A stretch of DNA of 64,000 nucleotides from Tribonema minus (taxonomy: Eukaryota; Sar; Xanthophyceae; Tribonematales; Tribonemataceae), in contig JAFCMP010000312.1 of the NCBI GenBank assembly GCA_017506865.1, positions 434,001 to 498,000 of the forward strand, given 5' to 3'. Below the pieces are notes generated by a model, which saw only the letters and a program-made list of their open reading frames with translations, did no database searches and was not told the DNA's origin. This document shows, in pieces, positions 12,901-45,455 of this stretch; the first letter of the stretch is position 1; the number at the start of each line of letters is the position of its first letter. The position numbers were made by a program, and so were the translations under genes.

Positions 12901-27597
<14,697 letters not shown>

Positions 27598-27924
27598 ACC
27601 GCCACCACCACAACCGGCCTAGTTGTAAGCAGGTTAATGCTGTCAGACGGTCAGCATTTTCTCGGGAAAGTTAAATTTTGTCGGCGGGAGTCCTAATAGA
27701 CTAAATAATTATAGATAAAGGATGTGGCTGTAAAGGCGAAGGGATGTGTCCGGGGTTGCTACTACTAGTAGTAAAGGGGATGTGTCCGTAAAAGCACTGA
27801 AAACTTCCAGTAAAAAGCAACATGTATGGAGCAGCCATGTGCTTATATTTGCCCATTATGAAAGTATATCGCCTTCACTATTTCAAACGGGCCGGGCCCG
27901 GAGCACTGCAAGGAGTGTGGCCAG

Positions 27925-29560: not shown

Positions 29561-32500
29561 ACCAGGGTCCCTTGAGGCGAGCGGACATGCAGACTGGCAG
29601 TATCCCATGGCCATGTTGTGGTGTTGCGCGAAGCACCAGTGAGTATCATGTAGTACAGGACCCAATCAATTGTACGTCCTTCTCAAGCTCGCCCATGTAA
29701 TCGCCCTAAGCTTGTATACGCTGTATGTCCTTCTGTTCCCTGCTGACACAGTCTGCACGCTCCTGTGGAGCCTCTAAGCTCAGCTGCATGGCAAGCGCAA
29801 GGAGAGGAGAGCAAGGTCGTTTTCTGTGCAGCACACGCGCTGATGCCAGGTTGAGTGCTGATGCAGCAACTATACATGGTGCATTTGCTGGTCAAGATGG
29901 TCAGGGAGCAGGTGAGCTGAGCAGGTAGATGCAGCTCAATAGAAGTATTACACTTTTTTGACGTGTATACCTCTACACATACCTTCCGCTTATACATATA
30001 TACATACCTTCCGGCGCACATGTTGTCACAGGAGCAGCAGCAGACGCCCTGTACATGCTTGTACGTTTCACACATTACAGTGGTGAGCTTGCAAAGTGGG
30101 CATAATGCTGCACACTGATCGTCAAATACTCGATGAATCAGGACTCAATTGGCCATGCCATTTGCTCGAAAGTCTCATTTAATTTGCTCGAAAGTCTGTG
30201 CTTCAAGTTAGCATTATCGGATCCGTTGAGTACGCAAGGTGCGGGTGAAGGATACGCCATGCACATCATCTGCACATCAATCACAAGTGTCACTTATCAA
30301 CAGCTCAGCTTTGAGGTGTGGTTGATAGTCATGCTGATTGAGCATTGAAAGCACCTAATACATTGCATGTAGTCTACAGCCGCTTCCATGCGTGAATATA
30401 TCATCATTCGCATATCCGTGTATCAGCACCTGTGATCATCAGTCGCTCTGCGCACAGGTTCATTACTGTTCATGAAAGTTACCAATAGTAGCGACATCTA
30501 CCATCCATACTTGTAGTTGATGGCACGCAAACCAGCAGCTGAGCAGATGACATGGGTATGCATGCTTTCCGTCACTGACCAACACGCGCAGTTTGTGGAT
30601 GAGTCACACTACATCTTGACACTGAAACTGTGAACATGCATGCCAATAATGTGTCTTTATTGCGGTACTTTGGTCTTTTGAAGCTTCGACACGCGCGCAT
30701 TGGTGCAACATGTGCTGTGAAGTGTGAAGTGAACCATTGTTCATACGGGCTTGATAAAACTTCCGAGCGAGATGAGGTGTTTATGCACATGTGAAAGATA
30801 CTTCTGCCGTTGTCTGTCTGCAGACAGCACAACCACACAGGCACCACGGCAGGATGCTGCAGTGACATTCGACCCACGCCACATGAGTAAAATCAAAGCA
30901 CTTCTTTCGGCCATATTGCAGTGGTGTTGTCAGTGTCACTGCTCTTAAGCTTTGTTGTTGGGTTGAGTAACTGACCAGCTGCATACGCAGTAAAGAAAGG
31001 TGCGCACATGATGCTGTGAGTCGTCTGGCAATTACACTCTGCGCATGCATCGTTTGCATTAACTTGAAGGCTGGACGAGCATTGCAGTAGCAGCACTGCC
31101 AGCTCCCTTGTCAACATTTGGCTGAAGCAGATGTTGTGATCAGCGCTGCACACTATCAATATGACTACATGCAGAGTTCAGCTTGCAATGCATAGTATAT
31201 GGCAGGCACTGACAAGACAACTGCATGCACAGCGAAGCACTTTTTGATGCACACCGTCAGGGAGACTGTGAAGCAAGGCCTTGCATGTGACTCACATCAT
31301 TGCACACTCACTGGCGGCGCTATCTGTTGCATTCTCAGGCAGTGCTCGTTTTTGGTGACTTGCACATTGCATGATGTCAGGTCCGGCACTTCCAATTTAG
31401 AGTGGCATGTCATTTTCTGACACCAGAAACACACAGCAACAGGGTACACAATCGATGAAGTGCTCTTGTGTAGATGTGGTCAGCTTGAGTGCAATGTGCG
31501 ATGGTTTCAATGCACAGACTGCTCTCCGCTTCAAGCGGCTTTAGCACCACGCTGGCCGGCAGCAGCTATACTTTGAAGTACATGGACACTAGTTGCAAGC
31601 TGCGCATCAACATTCTGGGCTTATTTACGCTTTAATCAATGCTTTTAGTGCATCTACAAAAGAAGTAGTTGTAGCAATCATGGGCCACATGCTGCTACAT
31701 GCATACACTCACTATAGAGAATCACACTACATCATGAGACGCGCTGCCGCCGTGCACGTGCAAAAGCACAGGCATTGTGGGTCCAAACACCCACAGAGAC
31801 CCTCTCGTGCGACACCTCTCGGCCCAGGCTGCATTGGGTGCGGAGGCTGCCATATGGCATGCCCCAGTGCCTGCAGGCATGCCATAGCACCTGCCATACT
31901 GGTGGCCATCCAAACACACCGTACAGGTCTCAGGGCTTGAGCAGGCCATCCGTAAGGCCCGCATGCTTCGTTTTTTCATGATAGCTACTCCTCGACTCTG
32001 ACAATGTGGCATTGGCTGCTGCGCCGCCGTCGCCGCCGCCACCGCCGCTGGCGTCGCCAGCTGTGCGCTTGCACAGGCAGTGATGGTCACGGTGCAGGTG
32101 TCACAGCAGTGGCGTTGCTAGTGGTTGTACTGGTAGCACAGCAGCGCTGGTCGGCCATCTGTTGCACATCTGGTCTATGAAATTGGCTTGGTGGTGATAA
32201 CAGCATGTGACGTTTGATGGTTTTTTGCATAGTCATCTTGCAGGAGCTGTGTATATCCACAAAAAGTGATGTCCTCCACAATCATGACTTGCAATTCTCA
32301 CAAGTTTGGCAGAAGGTGGCCCTTGATGACTCAGGGTGACGCTCAGCTCCAGCAAGATCCCCATGCCGACACGAGGCACATTCATGGCAGTATCATGTGT
32401 TGGTGATGGCATTACCATGTGATTTGAGGAGTCGGTGAAGAGGCGTCGGAAGCGGACTATCGCATGAGCCTCCAGTGTGCGCTAGACAATTTATAAACTT

Positions 32501-32738
32501 CCTGCAGGCTTGTGGTGCCGTGCCGTGCCTTCTTCCCCGGTTCAACACCGGAAGTTCAACTCAAACTTGAAGTATTCATATGTCGAGGAACTGAGAGGAC
32601 GAGGGGGGCACACCCAAAAACCAGTCATCGCAGCGTCGGCAAGCACTTTGAGACGAACATGACATCACAACGGCCCTAACCTCATCGTCGCTCGAAGCCA
32701 AGACCAAGATTGTCACCGTTGGTACTTAATCTGAACTC
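29561..32738. other. intergenic, no gene assigned
   Basis: About 3.2 kb without a convincing gene. Open frames on both strands are short, low in recognisable motifs and not linked by plausible splicing. A small tandem ATACCTTCCG-containing duplication lies near 29980-30015. Confidence 0.4.
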
Positions 32739-35700
32739 ATGTCGGCCTCAAAGCTGGATCCGGTCAAGTCAGGAGCGATTTATAGGGTTGTTCCAGGCAG
32801 CAAGGCGTACTTGGCCATGACTTCTCCTCTTCCGCGACAAGCCTCTTCTAGTTCTCAACGCCAGTGCCAGCAGCATCAACCTCCTCTGCAACCACCGTGG
32901 TTCGCCGTGTCGCCACCAACATCAGCAGCAGCAGCACCACCGCCCTCAGCAGTGAGCCAATCATTGCGCCGACCCGAGCCCGTACATGCGGGCGCAAGCG
33001 TCCCTGCTGGCCGCAGCGTCAGCGAGAGGTTCTTGGCGTTAGTTCAGGCCAGCCCGATGCCGAGGGTGCTCAGGCAGGCTCATGAAATCGGAGTGTCAAG
33101 CGCGCCATTCCTGACGCCTGCTACACTTTGGGATGCAGTGCAGCCGCCAGCGCGACCGCTCCGTTCGCCTTCGTCCCTTGACACAATCGCAGAGCAGCTT
33201 CCCGACCCAGGATCGGCGGCACGCGGTCACAACACAGTTCCTGCCTATCAGCGACAGGTCATGATGGCTTCGCCGCAGAGCACGCCAGCGGCGGCGCCGA
33301 GACAATGGCCACACAGTTGCGAGCAGGCGCAGCGCCACGAGCAGCAGCAGTGTGCGCTTGCAGCAGTACATGGCGGCGCTGCAGATGTGGCAGCAGCGCT
33401 GCCGTGCGCCGGCGCCGCGGAGCAGTGCGATTTTGCGCCGCCGCAGCAGCCAGTGCGGGCGCCGCTGCAGGCGGGAGCGGACGCGTGCCTTGACGCTGCT
33501 GCTGCAACGTCGGCAGCGTCTGCGGCGCACGCGATCGCTGCCGCTCCATCACCATTACAGGCGGAGCAGGAGCAGGCATGGGAAGCTGGGGCAACTGGTG
33601 GGGAGAGGGGCAGGGGCAATACAGTGGATGACAGGGTGTTGTACCCGGAGGGGACTGCCGTGCGCCGGCAATTTGTTGAGGGCTGGTTTAATGGCCAGGT
33701 GCGTCGTGCATCCGCTGCAGTTTGTGGCGCAGCGCAGGTGCTGTCGTGTGCACCATTGTGAGTAGTTGTTGTTTGTCATAAAGAGCAGCGCGGGTTCATC
33801 ACGCACTTGTGATAGAAGGCTGTCTAATCGTGTTGAATCTGGTGTAAAAATGTGGGAATTGGTGATGTGTACGGTGAGGTGACTGCTGCGCATGCGGCAG
33901 GGCACTGCATTGAGTCCGATGCAAACAGTGAGTCTGCAGGTGCCTTTGTGCTCCCTGTATGTGTGCGCTGTCTGATCTCATCGAGAGAATGGCAGCATCA
34001 GGTATCACGCACAAGCCGCCAGCAGCTGCATCACACGCACTCCAGCATGTTCAGCTGGTCTTAAGGCGCCTGCACACAGTTGATGTGACTAGCTTGCTTG
34101 CTCTGATCGGAGATTTATGCTGTGTGTACTGAGCAGGTGGTGCTGCGCCATGCGGTAAACTCTGAAAATAGCGCCAGCACCGCTCAGCAACAGCAGCAGC
34201 GAGTGCTGTGGCGCGTTCTGTACACGGATGGAGACAGCGAGGACTTGCAGCTGGAGGACATGCATCAGATGGTAGCAAACTATGCCACTTGGTCAGCAGC
34301 AACACGATCGCCGCTGTTGGAGCGCGAAGTTGAAGCCGATGATGCTGCAGATGATACACAAGCCGCAGCGGCAGCAGCAGCGGCAGCAGCAGCGGCAGCA
34401 GCGGCACTGGCGGCGCCAGCGACCGAACCACCGATGCCAGCAGCAGCAGCAGCAGCAGCGCTGTCACGACCAGCAGCAGCTGCAGTTGGCACACGCGAGG
34501 TTGTGCTCCGCGACTGGTGCATCACCATGTCTCCGCTGCCGCGCAACGACGGCAGCAGCAGCATCCGCAACCTGCAGAACAGTGGCGTAGCTCAGCCCAA
34601 GTACTACATCCACGGCTTTGCCGATGCGGGCAGCAGCACCAGCAACGAGAGCGCCGCTGCTGTCATCGACGATACTTCAGGAGATGACGCTCGCAGCAGC
34701 AACAGCAGGAGCAGCGCTCCAGTGAAACTGCAGGTGGAGGCGCGGATCGACCAGCACACTGTCGCGACAGTCGGCGGCGCGCGCTATGGCGTGCGCGGCG
34801 CGCCTTCGGACGCGGGCGCCGCAGCGCGTCCACCGCCCCACGGCGCGCTGTTTGCGGTGCGCGGAGGTGTGCCCATGCAGTGGCGGCGCGCAGTGGCGCG
34901 CGCTTACGAGCGCGCTGCTGCCGCCGCCGCCGCTGAAGTCGCGGCTTCAACTGAGGGACAGCAGGGGGGTGGTGGGGACCGCTATGGCGATGTGCAGCTG
35001 CCGACGGGGACCATTGCTGGTGGGTGTGTGGAATTTGTCTTCCTGGCAGCACTGGACTGTTGATGATCACTTGTATGGCGATTTGCTTTGCAAGGCAGTT
35101 GTGTGTGGCATGCGCGCTCCGCCTCTCATCATGTGCGCTGCACATCGTTTCTGACGCTGCGTGCCAGAATATGCACCTTCTTGGCTGTAAGCGGGCATCA
35201 GCTAACACGCGTGTCACAAGGTTCAGAGTCAAGCTCAAGCTGTCATTTGGGAGAGCCTCAGACTCGCGTGCGTCCGCTTGCTCTGCGAGATCAGCACATT
35301 GACGTGTGTTGGCGTCATGCAGCGTGTCTCAGCTACAATATTTATTAGAAGAACGGCAAGTAGGTATTGCAGTAGCAGCGTTTTTGCAGAATGAGCTGGT
35401 CAGTTGTGTTCAGGTACCTCAAGATACCTCCAAGTTCACTACTGCGGACCTTGACCAGTGATTCCGACGTATATACACATTCGGCAGTATTTGTAAATTG
35501 CACCGCCACCATGTACTCCGACACGACGCAACAAAAATTATGATTTGTCAATGAGCGCCTGAGCTGTGTAACGCTGTTTCCTGCTCGTTGCAGGGCGATT
35601 GAGGAACAAGGCAGGCAGCAGCACACCTGCTTCCACCAGCCAGGCCTCCAAGGCCGATGTACAATCTACAGTCTCCCGGAAAACTGGTGCCGTCGCCACA

Positions 35701-38700
35701 CTGCCATCTGCTCATGGCAGCGCAACAAAGAAGAAACCTGCAGCAGGCAAAGCATCAGCGGCGGCGCCCCCCTCTGCATCAGCTGACAAACAGGCGTCAG
35801 TGTCCAAGGTCTCGCGCAAACGCGGTGCCGTGGCCACCAAGGCAAAAAATGCGCGCAGCAGCACTGGCCTGGCAGCCCTAGTGGCAGTGAAACCGGAACC
35901 GCAGGAGGTAGCGGCAGCAGGAGCGTCGCCAGCTGCGCCTTCAACTTCGCGCAGCAGCGGCGCACGGAGAAAATCTGCAGCGAAAGCGGCAGCAGCAGCA
36001 GCAGCAGCAGCGGCACCGGCTTCCCACTGCAGCGCTGCCTCCAGAAAAACTGCCGCGAAAGCACCCAAGTCACAGAAGCAGCGGCTTTCGGCAGCCGCTG
36101 AGACCCCCATAGCCGCTAGCAAGAAGCCTTCAGAGAAGGGCAGCAGCCATGCAAAGGGGGGTGGCGGCAGCGCAGGACATGCCGCTGGTGCTGGCGGTGG
36201 CGGCACCAACAGCGGCGGCGGCGGCGGTGGCGGCGATGAAAGCGGCGTGAAGGTTACATGTACGCGCAGCGGCAGGAAGCGCGTGCCGGTGCTGGAGTGG
36301 TGGCGCAGCCAACGGCTCAGCGTTGGCCCGGATAGCAACGGTGAGGCCCCTGAGTTGAAGTTGCTCACTCAAAGCTACTTGTCATGTATGGTGGATTTGG
36401 CTACATCAGGGGGGTTGCGTCAAACCTCCTCACTTGTTGGCGACCAATATGCTCGTAGTTTGAAGTATATACCTGACAGTGAGTTGCAGTGGCTGGCTAC
36501 CATGCAATTACAGCGATCAATGCCAGAACTCATTTTGTCGCTGTGTGAGGACCGAAGAGCTGCTCAGCAGTGGCCTGGACAGTAGGTTTCAGATCAATCT
36601 GTGTCGTGCGTGTCCAAGCCATCTCATGAATGGTGAGGTCAATTCAGGGCACAGCCTCGCATTGTACAATTTAGTCTTGCGCAGGTCTGGAACAAGCAGC
36701 ATTGAGGGTTTGCGCCGCCTGTGTCTTGCGTCTGGTGATTATTGCCAGTAAATCAAGTGCTGCATACTGTATGAAGAGGTAGAGGTAACTACACTAGCCT
36801 TCTCAGCGCTCACTGCTTCAATGACGCATAGAGTGTTTATGTCATCCTGCGTGCAGCCTGCTCGAAAGGAGTGGTGACTTTTCTCAATGTTTGTTAGTTT
36901 TTACATGCTGAAGTGCATACTGGCATGTTGTGGCCAATTGCAAGCTGGGGTACCCTTGAATTATATTTTCAAGTTTCTTACTGTTACCTGCAACAGCAGC
37001 TTTGAGGTCTATTCAGTATGTAAATGCGACTTGTACGCCCAGTGCATTTTCGCATGTCGGTCCACATTCAAACTGATAGCCCAGATGCGGTGTTTGAACT
37101 CACTTTACACATTCAAGTTCAACTTGCTTGTTCTGGCCAACCTCCGCATACGGTTTGACGATGCCTTGGTGCATCCATTGCTGTTGCGCGCTGTGCAGCG
37201 GAGCTGCTTTCACCGTCACCAATGAGGCCCAGCCTTGCTTCTGCAACTTCAACCGGCAAACGGCGACGCTCCGCAGCTGCTCTAGCAGTCAAGCAAGAGC
37301 CCCAGGAGAGCACCAGCAAGCGCAGAAAAGGAGCAGCGGAAGGTGTTTTGAAGTGGCGGCCGCGCATAATTTCAAAAGAAGTACTGCCAGCCTATTGCAG
37401 TGCAGATGCTGACACCCCGCTGAATATATATACATTGACATATCGAAGTCAAACAGCAACGTGCCTGAAATGTTGACTTGTTCTTGCTGCTGCAGTCAGC
37501 AGGCTTGCTGTCGGTTGAGCCAGTAGCTTCAAGTGGACTGCAGGTAAATAGGCATACTTGACGTCCAACTCATGTGATGCTGATCGTGAAAAGGAAGGTC
37601 TCGTCACGCAAATTCTCAAGTACATAAGCTGTTCATTGAAGCAACCATCTGAATTCAGCCCCACACACAGCCACCGTTGTGACACTGACGCATAAAACAA
37701 TCATTGTGCCCCCGACTTAGAGCGGCCGAAGTGCCAGCCCCAAACGTGAATTTCGGGTGAATACTGGTTATATTTTTGAACATCCTCCTTTCTAGACTAG
37801 ACTCATTTCTTTTCTAGACCAGATGGATTAACCCTTGGGCATGTGTAAGTTGGTTTGTCGATATTTGTGTCACAGGCGATGAATGGACGGAGCAGCAGGA
37901 AGCGCTACTTCAACAGGCGCAGCTGCGCACCGACCCGGGGCACGCCAACTTCTGGGTTCAAGTTGCAAAGGGCGTGCCCGGCAAGAGCGCCGGCCAGTGC
38001 TCGCAGCGCTGGTTTGCGCAACTTGAAGAGCACAACGATGGAGCGGGCGGCACTAGCAAAGGCAATCAGGCGGGGACCAAGCGCAAGAGGGGCAAAAGCG
38101 CCGCAGCAACGCCATCGGCACAGGTACGTTGCCGCTTCTGCATGTCTGTGTGACGTAGGGCACTGAAGTGCTTGGTGACCTGCAACATCATGAAGAAATG
38201 GTGGTTGTGCCGCACTGCATTGACTGCAGCGCTAGTGACGCAAGTTGTCTCAAGTATCTCGAGTACATGAACACATGTCAATGTTTGTATCACAAGCTGT
38301 CCCGTCTGCACCGGCGCTGGGATGCGCTGGTGTGATAATGAAAGGCAAATGCAAGTCGAATTGCTTGCTTGTACCTGATTCATAAAACCACCAGAGAGAC
38401 CTCAAGTTTTTTGGGTTAGAAGCATTTCCAGTTGCTGGTGCCAGGGGCTTGATGCCCTGGTGACGAAGGCTTGAAGCAGAAGTAGCGATGATACTGTTTT
38501 CAGGGACAATTGTGGTTCATGACAATGAGCAGTATCTTGTGCGGCACCACGGCAGCGTCCGTACATCTGGTGCACGCATATGAGCGTGATGGCTGTTCAG
38601 TACCATGCAATACGTGGTCAAACGCGGCGCATGAACATCTGCAAGTTGAAGTTTTGAATCAAATCCCACTGTGATGCCAAGCGCAGGATGTGCAATCAGA

Positions 38701-41557
38701 GAGGCGCTAACACCATGGCTGTACACACACTGGCACATGACACTCACTCTGTAAGTACTGCAGAGGCTGTGCCATGAGGTATTGCCGATAATGCAGCAGC
38801 AAGAGTTGAAGTAGGCACTTGCACTATTACGTCATGATGGAAGGACGTCATGCGGCATCAGACCAGCACTGACAGGGTTGCCACTGGCACTATCATGGCT
38901 CAAACAGGACAAGCCGGCAGCCTCCGCAGCGAAGACAGCGCAGGCGGCGTCAAAGGGCGGCAAGCGCGGCCAGACACGCGCCGCCGCGATAGCGAGCTAC
39001 CTGTCATCACAAGCGGGGCACATGGACGATGTGTTCCAGGTGCTTCATAAGCATGTAGTTGCATGTTATCTGCACATGTGTTGTCTTGGCAATGCATGTG
39101 CGCGCATGTCTGAAGCCCTTGTTTCAGAGTGTTGCATGCGTAAAGCGTGGTCAGGCATGTACAGACGCGACACCGAGCTATCAACTCTTCCCGGAAGCAC
39201 CTTCAATATGTTACAGCAGCGCGGCACGTAGACAGAGTGCTGTACCTCAGATGCCTTTCGAACGTGCAGTGACTTACATGCACAACAACAGTTGTGAGGT
39301 ATGCCTTCGCTTTTGTGTTGTGCAGCAACTTATACTGACTGCTTAGCAGGGCCTGCAAGCAAAGTGGTTTAGGTCGCTACCAAACCCCAAGTCTTGGGTG
39401 CCAACGCCTACCAACCTGCATCTTAGGCATGGATGGAATGCAGCACTTATGTTTTTGCTGCCTTTCATAGCATGCATGAGTCCTCTGGCAGCCAGAGTAG
39501 CATTCAGATGGTGATCATTAGACATTAATGGCCCCTTATATTCAGCAATACCATGCCACATTCGTTCAGCGCTCAAAAGTGTGGCATGGCCGCTTTAAAA
39601 AGTGATCCGACACTTGTTGTCATGACGGCCAAAGACGGACGGTGGACAAACAATGGGCATCAAGGTCAAAACAACTTCAAAATCCTTACAGCACTGTCAT
39701 TTGCTGCACAAGCAGCCTCGTTGTCGTGCAGAACGCACAAGCATGTCTCAGCAGTCAACAAATTGGTGCAGTTGATGGCGCCGTTGTACTGCAAGCAGAC
39801 CTGTCATGCCTCCCTACACCCGCGCCTTGACCTATGCGCGTCACCTGCTGTACTGCGCTCTGGTGATTCCCGCACTTTAACATCGTGGGTTCATGCGCTT
39901 TGACTGCCTGTTTGCCCGGTGAAAGCCTGTGGTCTTGTCCCTGCTTCCACAAAAAGAGCAACAACGGGCACTTGAAGTTGCCGCAGCAAATATTATCACT
40001 TCCCATCTGCTGCCTTGCCTGGTAATATCTGTACTAGACTATCGTACTGATTTACTTGCTTTGGTGTCGCCTGTGATGCATGTGACACCACTGCCTGCAG
40101 GATAGTGGCGGTGCGCAGGGAAAGAAGAAACGGAAGCTATCGGTTCCAGGCGTTGTGTCGCTGCCACCGAACACGTTGGGCGCGACAGTACCAACCCCTA
40201 AAGCACAAGGCAAAACTGGCAAAGCCGGCAAGAGCCCTGCCAATGCCCGGCAATCGCAGGTATGGAGGGATAACCGAGTCGTTACATAGAGCCCTAGTGT
40301 CACCCCTCGCCTTGCAGACAGGTTTTGAATTACTGCACCCTAGGAGGCAGGGCCTGCTGGGGTTATCATGCATGATAGCCATGCTTGTGTGATTGATAAG
40401 GCTGTGCTGTACCGCCTGCACATTGCTGCTCACCTTTCCTCAACATCTCTGCATCCTGCAAACGGCACAGGGTGCGTAAAGATCAATTCTGCTGTTACTC
40501 TACTTGCTCGTATGTCGCTGTTCAAATTGACGACTGTTGTTGACCGTTGTCAAGCTCCAAGAACTCCATCATTAACTTAAGGACCTTAAGTGCTTGGTGA
40601 GTACTCAGCACTCCACTCTACTGGAACTCCAATGTCACCACTACCCTCTTTTAGGAAGTGGACTTCAAAAATCACGAGAGTATTGCGGCTGGAATTCCCC
40701 TCAGTTGGGACCATCCTGCCTCCACTGAATGTGCGTCGACAGCTCTGAATATGCTTTGCGCAAAAGCTTGCTGCACCATCGTGGTAGAGCTGTGAGCTCA
40801 CTACCTCTGCTGAATGCTGCTGCTGCTATAGGCCAGCGGCAATGTGAGCAAGAGCTACATGGTGGCAGTGTCCAAGCGCATGCGCAAGCAGCCACCGCCT
40901 AAAGCAGGTGATTTTGCACTTTATTTGTGCACTCAATATTCTACTTTGCGCACTGCATGCCACTGACGCGGTCTCAATGTTTTTGTTACAATGCGCAATG
41001 TGCTCAGCTGCTCATGCTGGATATGGCTTTGCCCTTCCTTCGCATCACCATTTCTGGTCGTTCTGTGCCCCCATGCCATCATCCATTCCATTTGGGTCAT
41101 ACCATTCTGAACAGCAGCAGACTGGCGTCTGCACCAAAGCTAGGGCTGCACAGCTGTAGGACTCGAGTGCAAGCACGTAGTTGTGATCCAAATGAACACT
41201 GAGGTGTGGCTGATTGAGTAGCATTCCTCTGCATTTGTTGCTGAGCTTCTCCGCTACGAAATTGCTGTTGCTTGTCAGGTGGGCTTGTACCGCCTGTGCT
41301 GCCGCTGTGAGCACCTTGCACTACTCTAATCTTATGATTACAAACTGGGCCTGGCTGCTGCAGGTGCCATCATGGTCAAAGCCAAACGCCCGAAAGCCGC
41401 AAAAGCCGTCACGACCACCACTGCAGCCGGTGCAGGCTACAAACTCAAGGGCATGGTGTCTAGTGGCGGTGCAGTGAGGCTTGAAGAACAAGCTGCGAGC
41501 AGCAGTGAATATGACGGCTTTGCAAATGAGTCTGGCTCTGAGTCTGACACAGAATGA
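32739..41557 (+). CDS. KNL2: KNL2/M18BP1-like centromere protein
   Basis: Start ATG 32739 follows an in-frame TAA at 32727. Exons: 32739-33698, 34137-35019, 35594-36340, 37199-37342, 37876-38123, 38908-39039, 40101-40259, ~40655-40731 (end unresolved), 40832-40907 and 41364-41557 (TGA), about 1200 aa. Phases join throughout except the eighth exon. Visible regions: Tudor-like (~300-370, VRRQFVEGWFNGQV then WRVLYTDGDSEDL); SANTA-like (~439-600, VVLRDWCITM, then VATVGGARYGVRGA); CENPC-k (~836-862, RSGRKRVPVLEWWRSQR); SANT/Myb (~912-960, DEWTEQQEALLQQ, FWVQVAKGVPGKS, CSQRWF); Lys-rich linkers and an acidic tail. KNL2/M18BP1 licenses CENP-A deposition at centromeres. The SANTA region is interrupted by a Ser-rich insert. 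Poly-Ala and poly-Gly tracts come from GCA/GGC repeats. Confidence 0.75.
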
Positions 41558-41848
41558 AACTACTCTCATGTACCTCTATTATATTCCACTTGTGGCTGTG
41601 GAAATGCCATGCTGTGTACTTCCAGCATACTGCTATAAAACTTGCTGTATCTGTGTGCTGGTGCAGGGGTTAGTGCCATGCACGTGCGTCTGCACACATG
41701 CGCCTGCCACAATGTGCTTACGACAGCAAAAACAAGTCATACATGCATGTCGGCAATCTTGAGGAAAAGTGTCATAAATAAATGTTATGGTGTCAATCTC
41801 CATCGGTAACATTGAATCTCACATGACGATACATTATTCATGGCAAAA
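41558..41848. other. intergenic / KNL2 3' UTR
   Basis: Downstream of the KNL2-like stop codon. No gene seen; a likely 3' untranslated region that approaches the convergent tRNA-like unit. Confidence 0.4.
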
Positions 41849-41849
41849 G

Positions 41850-41920
41850 TCCACACCGACAGGAATTGAACCTGTTTCTCCAGGCTATTGCCTGGTGTGC
41901 TTCCATTGCACCACGGTGTG
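41850..41920 (-). tRNA. tRNA-like gene with non-canonical anticodon arm
   Basis: The minus strand folds as a cloverleaf: acceptor CACACCG/CGGTGTG (7 bp), D arm GTGC-AATGGAA-GCAC, T arm ACAGG-TTCAATT-CCTGT. The Pol III A box (TGGTGCAATGG) and B box (GGTTCAATTCC) match consensus, and TTTT follows three bases after the discriminator. The anticodon arm is abnormal: CCAGG-CAATAG-CCTGG leaves a six-base loop (or a six-pair stem with a four-base loop) without U33, so no anticodon can be assigned. It could be a degenerate tRNA or a tRNA-like Pol III transcript. Confidence 0.65.
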
Positions 41921-42996
41921 CGGTGGGTGCTGACAATCAATGCACATTCATGCTTTGACGCAAGCAATGGCACACATACACATACGTAGAGACAGAGCTT
42001 CCGCATGCATCAATTCATCAAGTATCATAATGGTACATGTAATTTTACGTCACATCAGTGTATGCAACTTCAAGCATTGCGTGATGTGTCCAGCCAAGGT
42101 CTCTCTTGGTGGTAGTGAACCGACAAGGGCCAGCACCAGGCCCCCGCACCACGACAAGGTGGAGACTTTATTTGCGGGGGCGAACCTAGGTACACCAGAA
42201 TATACAAAGAACGCACGATGAGCAGCAGACAAGCACACAGTGACGGGAAGCGCAGGATCACATGCCCGCAGCAGATGGAGGCTGCAAGGTGGCCCGAATC
42301 AGATATGCGTTTCTAGAAAAGCCACGACACTTGCATAGGTGGTGCACTCAACTACATTGGTGCTTGACAAGCTGCATCCAGACAAGCGCATGCTGCTGAA
42401 CACAGGCACGGCCCGGAAAGAGCGAGGAAGGCAATCCCTCCCCTCTTTCCTGAAGAAGGGGCCCAGTGACGGGTGAGTCCCCTCCCGCAGATAAATCAAG
42501 ATCTCGCTCACCACTGGTTAGAGTGCGCGACGTGGGCAGTAAGGCTGTCAGCCAGGAATGCAGTACGACAAGCTGCGCGAACAGGTCTGCTGCGTCAGCT
42601 GCTGCGCGCGCAAGGCTGCAGCAGTTCAACTTCGCAAACTGGACCAAGCTAGCAGCCGGCATGACGTCGACTTCAGTGCACCTGGGCCTCCTGTGTTTGA
42701 GCAGCTGCGCTTGTCTGGCACTCACTTTTTTGTGGCTTTGTGGTGCCGAGCCAGCCTGAGGTGGTGCTCAGGCCAGGGCGGTTTACACCACTGAAAGCAA
42801 TGCAGATATGCCGTGGTAGCCTCTGAGCGGCACCTGCCACTAACACCGCATGTTTGCGTCCATGACCTCTAGAGGGGGCCATAAGGCCGCTACGAATGCG
42901 TATCAGCCGCCGGAGTAGCATGAACACACAAATGATTCATAGCCGCCAAGCAGCACATGGGTTACAAGTGCACTTGCCATGGCGGTAAGTCGGTGT
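41921..42996. other. unassigned, possible short exons
   Basis: Open frames near 42466-42794 (+) and 42348-42725 (-) overlap and neither shows a known domain. A Cys-containing + strand stretch (REQVCCVSCC, about 42570-42600) may be an upstream part of the p300-like locus, but this is not supported by splicing. Confidence 0.3.
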
Positions 42997-43138: not shown

Positions 43139-45455
43139 ACGTTCATAGCATCTGCCTCGGCGGCGGCACCAGCAGCAGCAGCAGCATGGATCTTCAAGCT
43201 GCATTACACAAGTTTGAGGTGGCGCTCGATGCTGAGCTTGCCAACGCTGCCTCAACGCATGCGACCTGTGCAGCAGACTGTTCCAGATGTGAGGGCAAGG
43301 CATGCATGCTGTGTGGAGAGCAGTGCCGTCATATGAAGCTTGCATACCTGCTCTGCATCAGCAGCAAGTAACTGTGCCAGTCTCAGAATGGCCCGGTGAT
43401 TGTCCATGGGGATGTGTATTGGACAACACCCGGCGATATACGCGTCGTCTGCGCTGCATGTCACAACAGCTTTTCGGAGCAGGTGCCAGATGAAGCTGAT
43501 GCATGGACGGAGCCGATGCCTGCTGCAAGCGATGGCATAGAGCTTGCTGCGCAGCTTGTAGAGGCCGGTACCTGTGTGCACAAGGCCGACGTCGCCAGTC
43601 ACGGCCTGACACAGATTTCCACAGACTGGTGGATCGGCTGTGACCACTGTGATCGGCGAGCTCACCGCACATGCGCAATGGTGGTTGCATGCACAGATGC
43701 GTGGCTTGCCTCTTCATCTTTTGCATGCCCCAACTGCATATAGCTAAGTGTAAGTCACGCCCGCTGCAAGGGTCGTTGGGTATGGCAGCGGTGGGGCTGT
43801 CTATAGCAACAGAGGAGCTTGATGCTCAGCCTGCTGCAATTAAAGTTGCAGCTGAGACCACACTGGTGGCACCAAGGGGAGGCGGCGGCGGCGCTTCCAC
43901 AGTGTAGCTGTTGACTGACAGTGTGCATTCTGGAGCAATGCAGAGCGCCCTGGCGGGGGTCGCTGCATGCGGGCGGTGACTGGGCGGTATGGGAGACAGC
44001 ATTGACGCCCGAGGCACGCGTCGGGGAGTAGCTCAAGGAGGGCTCACTGGGTGTCGGCAGTGATGCGCTTGCACAGGGGGGGGGGGGGTGATGTTGGCAC
44101 GTCACTACCTGCGGCGTCTGTGGCGGATGCAGATGGTGCTGATGGCTGTGGCCCGCCTCAAGAGCACACTTAGCGGCACTGCAGGAGCACTGCTTGACGT
44201 GTTCTCAGCGGAGAAGCTACCGCGCTCGGATGTAAGCGACTATCATGATGTAGAGCAGCGCGTGCAGAGCGTGCTCCCCCCAGGTGCTCCGCCGGTTGTC
44301 ATGAGGCTGGTCAGCAACTGCCACAGTGCAGTCAGCATACCGGCACCCTTCCAGCACACATTCTGCGCTGCACCCGGAAACAACCCGCGGAAGAGAATGC
44401 TGTATACCAGCAAAGCCCTGAGCCTGTTTCAGCTCATCGACGGCGCTTGGGTCATGAGCTTCATGGTGTATGCGCATGAGTACGGCCACGATGCACCAGC
44501 CTGCAACCGCGGGCGTGTGTATGTGTCGTACCTCGACAGCGTGCCGTTTTTGCAGCCCTACAGCAGCCGTTCAGCAGCATACCAGATGAAGCTGGTCGCG
44601 TACTTCGACTGGGTGAGACGGCGGGGGTTCGGCACCGTGCACCTGTGCAGTGCTCCGTCTGGCGACGATGGCAGGTACGTGTTCTGGTGTCATCCTGAGC
44701 ACCACCGCACCCGCAATGAGGATGGACTGCGGGCATGGTACTGCGAAGTAGCCAAGCAGTGCCAGAGCCACGGGATCATCGCGGCGTCCAGTGGTCTGTA
44801 CGAGTGCGGCCATCGGGAAGAGCAGCCCGCCCTTGCCAGCGATGACAGCAGCCGTGGGACCACAAGCGACGAGCGCCCTGTGCTCCCCCCGATTTTCAAA
44901 GGCGACTTCTGGATTGCGGATCTGTGAAACACGATGTCGGCAGACGAGCGCGTTGCTGCTGCACCGCTGCCAGATTACGCAACGCAGCATGTCGTCATCA
45001 TCACCGGGCAGGTTCCACCCGATGTGCTGGTCCTCAAGCTGGCTGCGCCCGAGGCGTCCCTTGTCGGCTCGTGGAGTTCACATGTCGTGGTGCCAAGCTC
45101 AGGGCGGGCGTTCGACGCTGACACGCTGGCCGACACCGATGGGCCGCGCTCCAACAAGGTCGTCGATGATCGACTGGCGCTGCTTGAGGCGTTCGTGTTG
45201 ACCTGCTTGCAGTTCAACACGCTTACTCATGCTCTCAGATCGCATCATGCGATGCTCACATCGTACGTCAGGTCCCTGGAGCAGTCCTCACAATGGTGCC
45301 GCCGCACCACAATCGCCGCAGCGCACTTGTGGCAACGGGAGTTCAGCGCCTGCTCGTGCGGGCAGTGCTGCGCGTACAGCAGCAGTGCTCTGCATGGCCG
45401 CAGCCATCGTGCGCAATTGCAAGAAGCTTCACATAAAGGCCTCAAGCATCGTTAG
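43139..45455 (+). pseudogene. p300/CBP (HAC-type) acetyltransferase locus, + copy, with in-frame stops
   Basis: In order: a Cys-rich RING-like part (CEGKACMLCGEQC), an in-frame TAA at 43369-43371, then a RING/PHD part (VVCAACHNSF ... WWIGCDHCDRRAHRTC ... FACPNC) ending at TAG 43741. After a ~350-bp gap comes the HAT domain (44091-44927), an in-frame TGA at 44925, and the region that follows the HAT in CBP proteins (LQFNTLTHALRSHH, then Cys/His-rich, ZZ-like) to 45455. The order matches p300/CBP/HAC coactivators, nuclear enzymes that acetylate histone lysines. The inverted copy has sense codons where this copy has TAA and TGA, so those look like nonsense mutations; unrecognised introns at the breaks are an alternative. 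No bromodomain, TAZ or KIX region was identified. Confidence 0.65.
44091..44927 (+). CDS. p300/CBP-type histone acetyltransferase (HAT/KAT11) domain ORF
   Basis: A 278-residue uninterrupted frame (first ATG 44091) covering the whole HAT core: KLPRSDVSDY, then TSKALSLFQLIDG, AHEYGHDAP, VYVSYLDSVPFLQP, GFGTVHLCSAP, VFWCHPEHHRT, RAWYCEVAK and a terminal FKGDFW. In p300 the sequence corresponding to YLDSV forms part of the acetyl-CoA/lysine site. The catalytic Tyr of p300 lies in a WYKK segment, conserved here as WYCE. The p300 Trp in the HIWACPP segment aligns with Cys here (HLCSAP), so activity may be altered. The poly-G run just upstream (about 44076-44088) is unusual. Whether it is translated alone or as part of the larger locus is not clear. 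Confidence 0.75.
   Translation: MLARHYLRRLWRMQMVLMAVARLKSTLSGTAGALLDVFSAEKLPRSDVSDYHDVEQRVQSVLPPGAPPVVMRLVSNCHSAVSIPAPFQHTFCAAPGNNPRKRMLYTSKALSLFQLIDGAWVMSFMVYAHEYGHDAPACNRGRVYVSYLDSVPFLQPYSSRSAAYQMKLVAYFDWVRRRGFGTVHLCSAPSGDDGRYVFWCHPEHHRTRNEDGLRAWYCEVAKQCQSHGIIAASSGLYECGHREEQPALASDDSSRGTTSDERPVLPPIFKGDFWIADL

Follow-up and report, generated by a model that had tools for sequence, protein, structure and literature searches.

KNL2/M18BP1 is a CENH3-loading factor, and in vertebrates other than mammals a CENPC-like motif is located between its SANTA and SANT domains. The mammalian M18BP1 order is SANTA, CENP-C-binding region, SANT (PMC9210943; papers are cited by PMC number, and what is said of them refers to the portions of their text that were available). 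The same paper gives the SANTA end motifs as VxLxDW and GFxxxxxxxFxxGFPxxW and describes a contact of SANTA with CENP-C in metaphase in Xenopus. It lists CENPC-k in KNL2 for vertebrates, invertebrates, chytrids, cryptomonads and plants, with no stramenopile in the available text, and its plant survey retrieved KNL2 from none of five algae. CENPC-k is a targeting element of KNL2 in Arabidopsis, chicken and frog; in chicken it binds the CENH3 nucleosome, and in Arabidopsis alphaKNL2 the DNA-binding basic regions adjoining CENPC-k are required (PMC11879092). In Xenopus, a phosphorylated serine near the arginine anchor blocks binding in mitosis (PMC13021935). The CENP-C motif core is RxxxxPxxYW in vertebrates and RxxxxPxxWW in fish (PMC4830207). 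Here we describe a gene in a stretch of 64,000 nucleotides, the window (contig JAFCMP010000312.1, positions 434,001 to 498,000, forward strand), that is most probably a genuine KNL2/M18BP1 of a red-plastid, brown-alga-like stramenopile. Its predicted parts are, in order, a Tudor of PTM/DIR17 type, a diverged SANTA, CENPC-k and SANT/Myb.

The KNL2-like gene and its domains

The gene is read on the forward strand as nine joined open frames, from the ATG at 32739 to 41557, the final base of TGA. They encode 1,180 amino acids (aa) with a single terminal stop. All eight introns are GT-AG and 438-1,061 bases long, and their phases agree; three donors (GTGTTT, GTGCTT, GTGATT) are judged weak by eye. 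The guanine-cytosine content is 0.46-0.53 in introns versus 0.55-0.67 in exons. An initial annotation had placed a KNL2/M18BP1-like protein on phase-compatible exons at 32739..41557, and both the ends and the phases agree with the model. The features are as follows, with coding scores in bits per codon (stops ignored):

32739..33698, + strand: exon 1, aa 1-320, low-complexity N-terminus and Tudor first half; coding +0.18
33639..33698, + strand: Tudor first half, aa 301-320, from PF21743 on the spliced 82 aa
34137..35019, + strand: exon 2, aa 321-615; coding +0.328
34137..34271, + strand: Tudor second half, aa 321-365, core WRVLYTDGDSEDL; PF21743 21.3 bits for the exon-2 frame alone
34497..34901, + strand: SANTA with probable inserts, aa 441-575, VVLRDW at 34500 and VRGGVPMQW at 34857; from trimmed-profile and joint-motif tests
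35594..36340, + strand: exon 3, aa 615-864, basic linker, VKPE at aa 713, CENPC-k; coding +0.446
36262..36321, + strand: CENPC-k motif, aa 838-857; from peptide scoring, PDB search and genome query
37199..37342, + strand: exon 4, aa 864-912, basic linker, VKQE at aa 894; coding +0.318
37876..38123, + strand: exon 5, aa 912-994, contains SANT/Myb; coding +0.456
37878-38027, + strand: SANT/Myb, aa 913-962; Pfam Myb 24.0 bits, AlphaFold three-helix model
38908..39039, + strand: exon 6, aa 995-1038; coding +0.586
40101..40259, + strand: exon 7, aa 1039-1091; coding +0.437
40832..40907, + strand: exon 8, aa 1092-1117; coding +0.471
41364..41557, + strand: exon 9, aa 1117-1180 and TGA stop; coding +0.229

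The CENPC-k pattern proposed in the initial annotation is borne out. Compared with the CENP-C peptide of PDB entry 4x23, the 20-mer TRSGRKRVPVLEWWRSQRLS (position 36262) reaches a score of 49, while the next best of the 68,403 stop-free 20-mers of the window (six frames) scores 27. The best chance scores are 19-37 in 12 order-2 Markov windows and 24-30 with ten shuffled motifs. CENP-C is also the sole PDB match to the 46-aa CENPC-k stretch (phmmer, E up to 10), at E 0.43. Judged by its score, CENPC-k is a strong motif, far above chance. A serine in TRSGR lies near the arginine anchor and is read, by eye, as the equivalent of the Xenopus serine. Furthermore, the surroundings are basic, with lysine and arginine versus aspartate and glutamate counting 36/12 in aa 581-837, 10/4 in aa 863-912 and 36/14 in aa 963-1180.

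A Tudor spanning the first exon junction is likewise confirmed. The spliced 82 aa across this junction match PF21743, the PTM/DIR17-type Tudor, with 31.6 bits (E 1.4e-7), above the cut-off of 27.2, while the unspliced halves fail it (no match for exon 1, 21.3 bits for exon 2). Four other places in the genome exceed the same cut-off. Among L033, L034 and L036, the closest by eye is L033 (contig C111), with FFSGTVQF...YRIVYEDGDEEDL compared with WFNGQVVL...WRVLYTDGDSEDL. 53BP1 presumably has a cage aromatic where the KNL2-like protein and these three loci have the second aspartate of DGD. The Tudor has no match in the PDB. A role as methyl-lysine or methyl-arginine reader would be a guess, since the match is to a family profile and the comparison with 53BP1 puts an aspartate at one cage aromatic.

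The SANTA-like block is recognised mainly by its ends. VVLRDW is an exact VxLxDW, and VRGGVPMQW follows 119 residues later, with valine at the two positions where FxxGFPxxW has phenylalanine. Taken singly, the motifs are not rare: VxLxDW occurs once versus 0.375 expected, and the second motif, loosened to hydrophobic residues (hxxGhPxxW), twice versus 0.45. The ordered pair, sharing an open frame at a spacing of 50-180 residues, has a single occurrence in the window and none in 40 Markov windows. With two probable insert loops trimmed, Pfam SANTA gives 12.7 bits over profile positions 1-90 of 92 (E 0.19); slightly heavier trimming gives 13.8 bits over positions 1-68 (E 0.084). The cut-off is 21, the E values are computed over 24,736 models, and the hypothesis guided the choice of what to trim. 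No family is reported for any of five shuffled or reversed decoys of the trimmed stretch. We take the SANTA match as real but diverged, because SANTA is the single model in question. In the 158-Mb assembly the SANTA region has no second copy, its query matching only the KNL2-like gene (one match, eight candidates scored). A genome-wide search with Pfam SANTA found nothing and its controls were equally empty, which makes it uninformative. For exon 2 the PDB (E up to 10) offers 15 matches, and no SANTA or Tudor protein is named among them; in viral contigs it has 25 pattern matches but zero relatives. The one PDB match of the trimmed SANTA, an antitoxin at E 0.39, is taken as chance.

For the SANT/Myb block, exon 5 matches Pfam Myb at E 4.1e-5 and, in the PDB, three-repeat c-Myb at a whole-sequence E of 3.5e-7 (best single repeat E 0.23). 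AlphaFold gives three helices with a predicted local distance difference test score (pLDDT) of 75.8. With this model Foldseek returns 81 matches, Myb/SANT chains first, the best at E 0.14 and none at or below 0.001; by VIA Z, homeodomains tie with Myb/SANT chains (8.4 vs 8.2). The predicted fold shows a three-helix Myb- or homeodomain-like arrangement, a level at which the subfamily is not distinguished, and no KNL2 Myb chain is among the matches listed in either fold search. A Mis18-binding protein 1 fusion came last of 27 in the PDB search with the SANT exon (E 1.7) and is not evidence. Two further places in the genome match SANT/Myb at E up to 0.01, the better being 44% identical over 44 residues (E 0.002). 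Exon 6 may resemble the region following SANT in animal M18BP1; the post-SANT region has no PDB match. In other searches of the protein, NCBIfam returned nothing for three pieces, and the weak Pfam matches to K_channel_TID and NtrZ are below their cut-offs and in low-complexity stretches.

Partner genes and lineage of the genome

As a genome query, CENPC-k finds itself and one other place, C511:654149, with 48% identity and E 0.07. The frame there reads GVRRSGRSRLQTLEWWKSEKAVY, and the gene carries RRSGRSRLQTLEWWKSE. Some 3.7 kb farther downstream, on the strand of the motif, is a cupin-like exon for which Pfam ranks CENP-C_C first (18.2 bits, E 0.003, under the cut-off of 29). In its genome-wide search the CENP-C_C profile matched in 4/14 prokaryote controls, none above cut-off. 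No Pfam match is found for the C511 motif exon or for the 679-aa frame upstream. We read this locus (L039, C511:649000-658900, minus strand) as a CENP-C candidate, and KNL2 and CENP-C look to be separate genes. Over the ungapped 17-residue core, the KNL2-like motif has 10 identities with the C511 candidate and 8 with 4x23. C511 and 4x23 themselves share 10, so these counts are no sign of joint evolution of the two algal motifs. Stretches like AKIPEGSDRPADAF of the cupin-like exon recur, diverged, between the motif and that exon.

The histone H3 query gave 36 matches, of which 30 were kept as loci; 12 of the 30 and then seven were examined. L023 and L025 (C1, C346) have a three-residue insertion in loop 1 and, in helix 2, RWTADAILALQEA or RWAATAILALQEA. 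L024, L027, L030 and L031, on C179, C90 and C540, are H3 relatives with FTPRGVKFRWAADALLALQ and like sequences. These relatives look like CENH3. The CENH3-like genes stand at no fewer than five places and are of at least two sequence types, and some may be alleles. Most diploids have one CENH3 gene (PMC7738545). L017 and L018 (C223, C144) belong to another type: these H3 relatives have a divergent tail and share about 63% identity with canonical H3.

The lineage was read from plastid-related and repeat families. With a 54-aa piece of Rubisco, the eight best PDB sequences, including 5mz2 and 1bwv, reach 104-105 bits, versus 60-64 for 1gk8, 8ruc and tobacco. We take the former two to be diatom and red-algal Rubisco and the latter three to be green. 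The two Rubisco matches in the genome are fragments with one stop each and may be nuclear copies of plastid DNA. Of 92 light-harvesting pieces, the top-ranked one alone was searched against the PDB, and its five best matches there are fucoxanthin-type proteins. For EsV-1-7 repeats, 550 candidates yielded 150 scored matches, every one over cut-off; this family is expanded in brown algae, patchy across eukaryotes and present in viruses (PMC7457493). Red-type Rubisco, a fucoxanthin-type antenna and EsV-1-7 repeats make a brown-alga-like stramenopile, not a member of the green lineage, highly likely. The initial annotation had set an alga with the ancestral set against land plants; that contrast falls away for a genome of red-plastid stramenopile type, probably outside the green lineage.

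Weighing the readings

Several observations weigh against the identification of the gene as KNL2/M18BP1. The exon junctions were picked by eye from open frames, which makes this a predicted gene model. On the full-length protein PF21743 gives 22.0 bits, below 27.2. Untrimmed sequence gives no Pfam SANTA match, be it as the exon, as the full spliced protein or as two shorter stretches, and the single-sequence AlphaFold model of the SANTA stretch failed (pLDDT 30.7) and was discarded. Exon 5 stays under the Myb cut-off, with 24.0 bits versus 24.4. In the algal core RxxxPxxxWW the proline is one residue earlier than in vertebrate RxxxxPxxYW, and the short core pattern alone is not rare (4 in the window versus 0.875 expected). 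The genome-wide CENP-C_C search gave no match in the alga's own genome. Mis18 was not found by an intron-blind search, in which the one Yippee-Mis18 match (three candidates) reads as Yippee.

The KNL2/M18BP1 identity and the four-part architecture of the initial annotation are supported, with SANTA and SANT under curated cut-offs. Profile searches of the translated exons gave Myb 24.0 of the 24.4 bits needed and trimmed SANTA 12.7-13.8 of 21, and the PDB match of CENPC-k was CENP-C at E 0.43. For SANTA, the ordered end motifs speak for the block, but the profile match is sub-threshold and appears only after trimming. For SANT/Myb, the Myb E value and the three-helix model do so, but the bit score falls short. 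CENPC-k, the mark that is absent in mammals and in betaKNL2, is found here with its proline shifted one residue.

Whether one gene or two are present was addressed by a leave-one-out codon score, trained on the remaining eight exons and contrasted with introns. As its training set is the gene itself, which is alanine-rich, it provides support, not proof. The score is above zero in 9/9 exons with the modelled frame top-scoring every time, at 0.191-0.642 bits/codon with stops scored and 0.18-0.586 with stops ignored. The intron windows of the first test contained stop codons, and a rerun with stops ignored gave an agreeing result. In 3,348 overlapping 80-codon intron windows (stops ignored) the median is -0.479, the 95% point -0.264 and the maximum -0.156. 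Read-through past the exon-3 donor scores -0.402 (stops scored) or -0.458 (stops ignored), and the exon-4 continuation -0.437 or -0.451. It is unlikely that the locus holds two adjacent genes, an alphaKNL2-type gene (Tudor-SANTA-CENPC-k, exons 1-3) followed by a Myb/SANT gene starting at an ATG inside exon 4. This division draws on the exon-3 frame, open until a stop at 36585, on the in-frame ATG within exon 4 and on a TGTAA at 37019 in intron 3, one of 8 on the + strand in 32001-42600. However, the sequence after the exon-3 donor is intron-like at -0.458 bits/codon, versus +0.18 to +0.586 for the nine exons, and a gene end at 36585 was rejected, as this continuation scores non-coding, inside the intron range. 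Intron 3 also joins in phase, two similar psiKxE sites flank it (VKPEPQE before, VKQEPQE after), and in vertebrates a single protein holds both SANTA and SANT (PMC13294675). Phase and coding signal lead us to infer that SANT belongs to the same transcript as SANTA and CENPC-k.

We consider it very improbable that another chromatin protein gained a CENP-C-like nucleosome motif and that the SANTA match is coincidental. SANTA is sub-threshold in every tested form, Tudor and Myb are found in other chromatin proteins, and the four other PF21743 places pass in this genome. Nevertheless, SANTA end motifs, then CENPC-k, then SANT follow the order of animal M18BP1, and the genome has no further SANTA-like copy. 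The chance that the gene is CENP-C itself or a CENP-C paralogue is close to nil: CENP-C is the sole PDB sequence match for the motif (E up to 10), but Pfam finds no cupin in the 1,180 aa (E up to 10), and the better CENP-C candidate lies on C511.

Other features of the window lie around the KNL2-like gene. Downstream on the same strand, at 43372-44927 (+), are a PHD-like zinc finger, which at E 0.0034 stays below cut-off, and then a p300/CBP-type acetyltransferase domain, HAT_KAT11 (E 4.9e-14). A transfer-RNA-like gene with an odd two-base anticodon call is located just past the KNL2 stop at 41851-41920 (-). Two repeat-bearing frames are on the minus strand: the frame at 19429-20184 hits the PMP repeat family of Chlamydia (E 2.1e-7), and that at 26587-27618 has GGAxY-like repeats by eye, with no Pfam match at E 0.01.

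Comparison with known KNL2 proteins and proposed role

Among known proteins, a near match to the predicted layout is M18BP1/KNL2 of non-mammalian vertebrates (Xenopus, chicken), where a single protein combines SANTA, a CENPC-like motif and SANT (PMC13294675). With Xenopus KNL2 it shares, by eye, the serine near the arginine anchor, here in TRSGR (PMC13021935). It differs in the extra Tudor before SANTA and in the probable SANTA insert loops, and a Mis18 partner was not found in the algal genome by the intron-blind search. With land-plant alphaKNL2 it has SANTA, CENPC-k and basic flanks in common; it carries psiKxE sites in its C-terminal half, and plant SUMO sites are described in PMC12903445. 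SANT is undetectable in the plant variants (PMC11879092) but is predicted in the algal model; the initial annotation likewise described land-plant KNL2 as having SANTA and CENPC-k, generally without SANT. A Tudor is not mentioned in the plant KNL2 literature searched. With CENP-C the protein shares the CENP-C motif, but it has no cupin match and a separate CENP-C candidate exists. With the PTM/DIR17-like Tudor family (PF21743) it shares the WRVLYTDGDSEDL core, the spliced fragment being above cut-off; the algal domain has a long Q-rich inter-strand loop and is set in a KNL2-like protein.

In the open-licence literature searched, we found no description of an algal KNL2 with Tudor or SANT and no paper on KNL2 in stramenopiles; the terms KNL2 and M18BP1 are absent from the available text of PMC9252888. 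New here is a KNL2 with an added Tudor in a lineage outside the list of PMC9210943, while SANTA, SANT and a CENPC-like motif together are already known from non-mammalian vertebrates.

The following mechanism is proposed. CENPC-k would bind the centromeric nucleosome, its arginine going to the H2A/H2B acidic patch and its double tryptophan to the CENH3 tail. The flanking basic stretches, and probably SANT/Myb, would hold the protein on DNA, and SANTA would contact CENP-C or itself. The KNL2-like protein would in this way promote new CENH3 loading. Given the motif, the serine and the basic flanks, it should act as a loading factor bound to the CENH3 nucleosome. That the protein binds nucleosomes and promotes loading, and what SANTA and the basic flanks do, we infer from published KNL2 work. 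The Tudor before SANTA would be an added chromatin-contact module that could couple loading to a histone mark, and this part is a guess. The observed basis consists of the open exons and phases, the graded sequence matches, the one SANTA copy, and the CENH3-like and CENP-C-like genes.

As the comparison spans distant eukaryotic groups, an ancestral SANTA, CENPC-k and SANT set becomes more plausible. A fuller scenario is doubtful and offered tentatively, namely that the Tudor reads a histone methylation found at centromeres and acts as a gate for CENH3 loading, and that the last common ancestor of eukaryotes already had the SANTA, CENPC-k and SANT core, with land plants having lost SANT and mammals CENPC-k. 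The predicted protein joins parts that plants and mammals each retain partly, together with an extra module of chromatin-binding type. KNL2, which contributes to marking the sites of chromosome attachment in division, helps to set new CENH3 sites and hence bears on centromere persistence. A stramenopile KNL2 with the vertebrate-type set would make the ancestral architecture testable by a tree, and a Tudor within KNL2 would directly and physically link a histone mark to centromere licensing.

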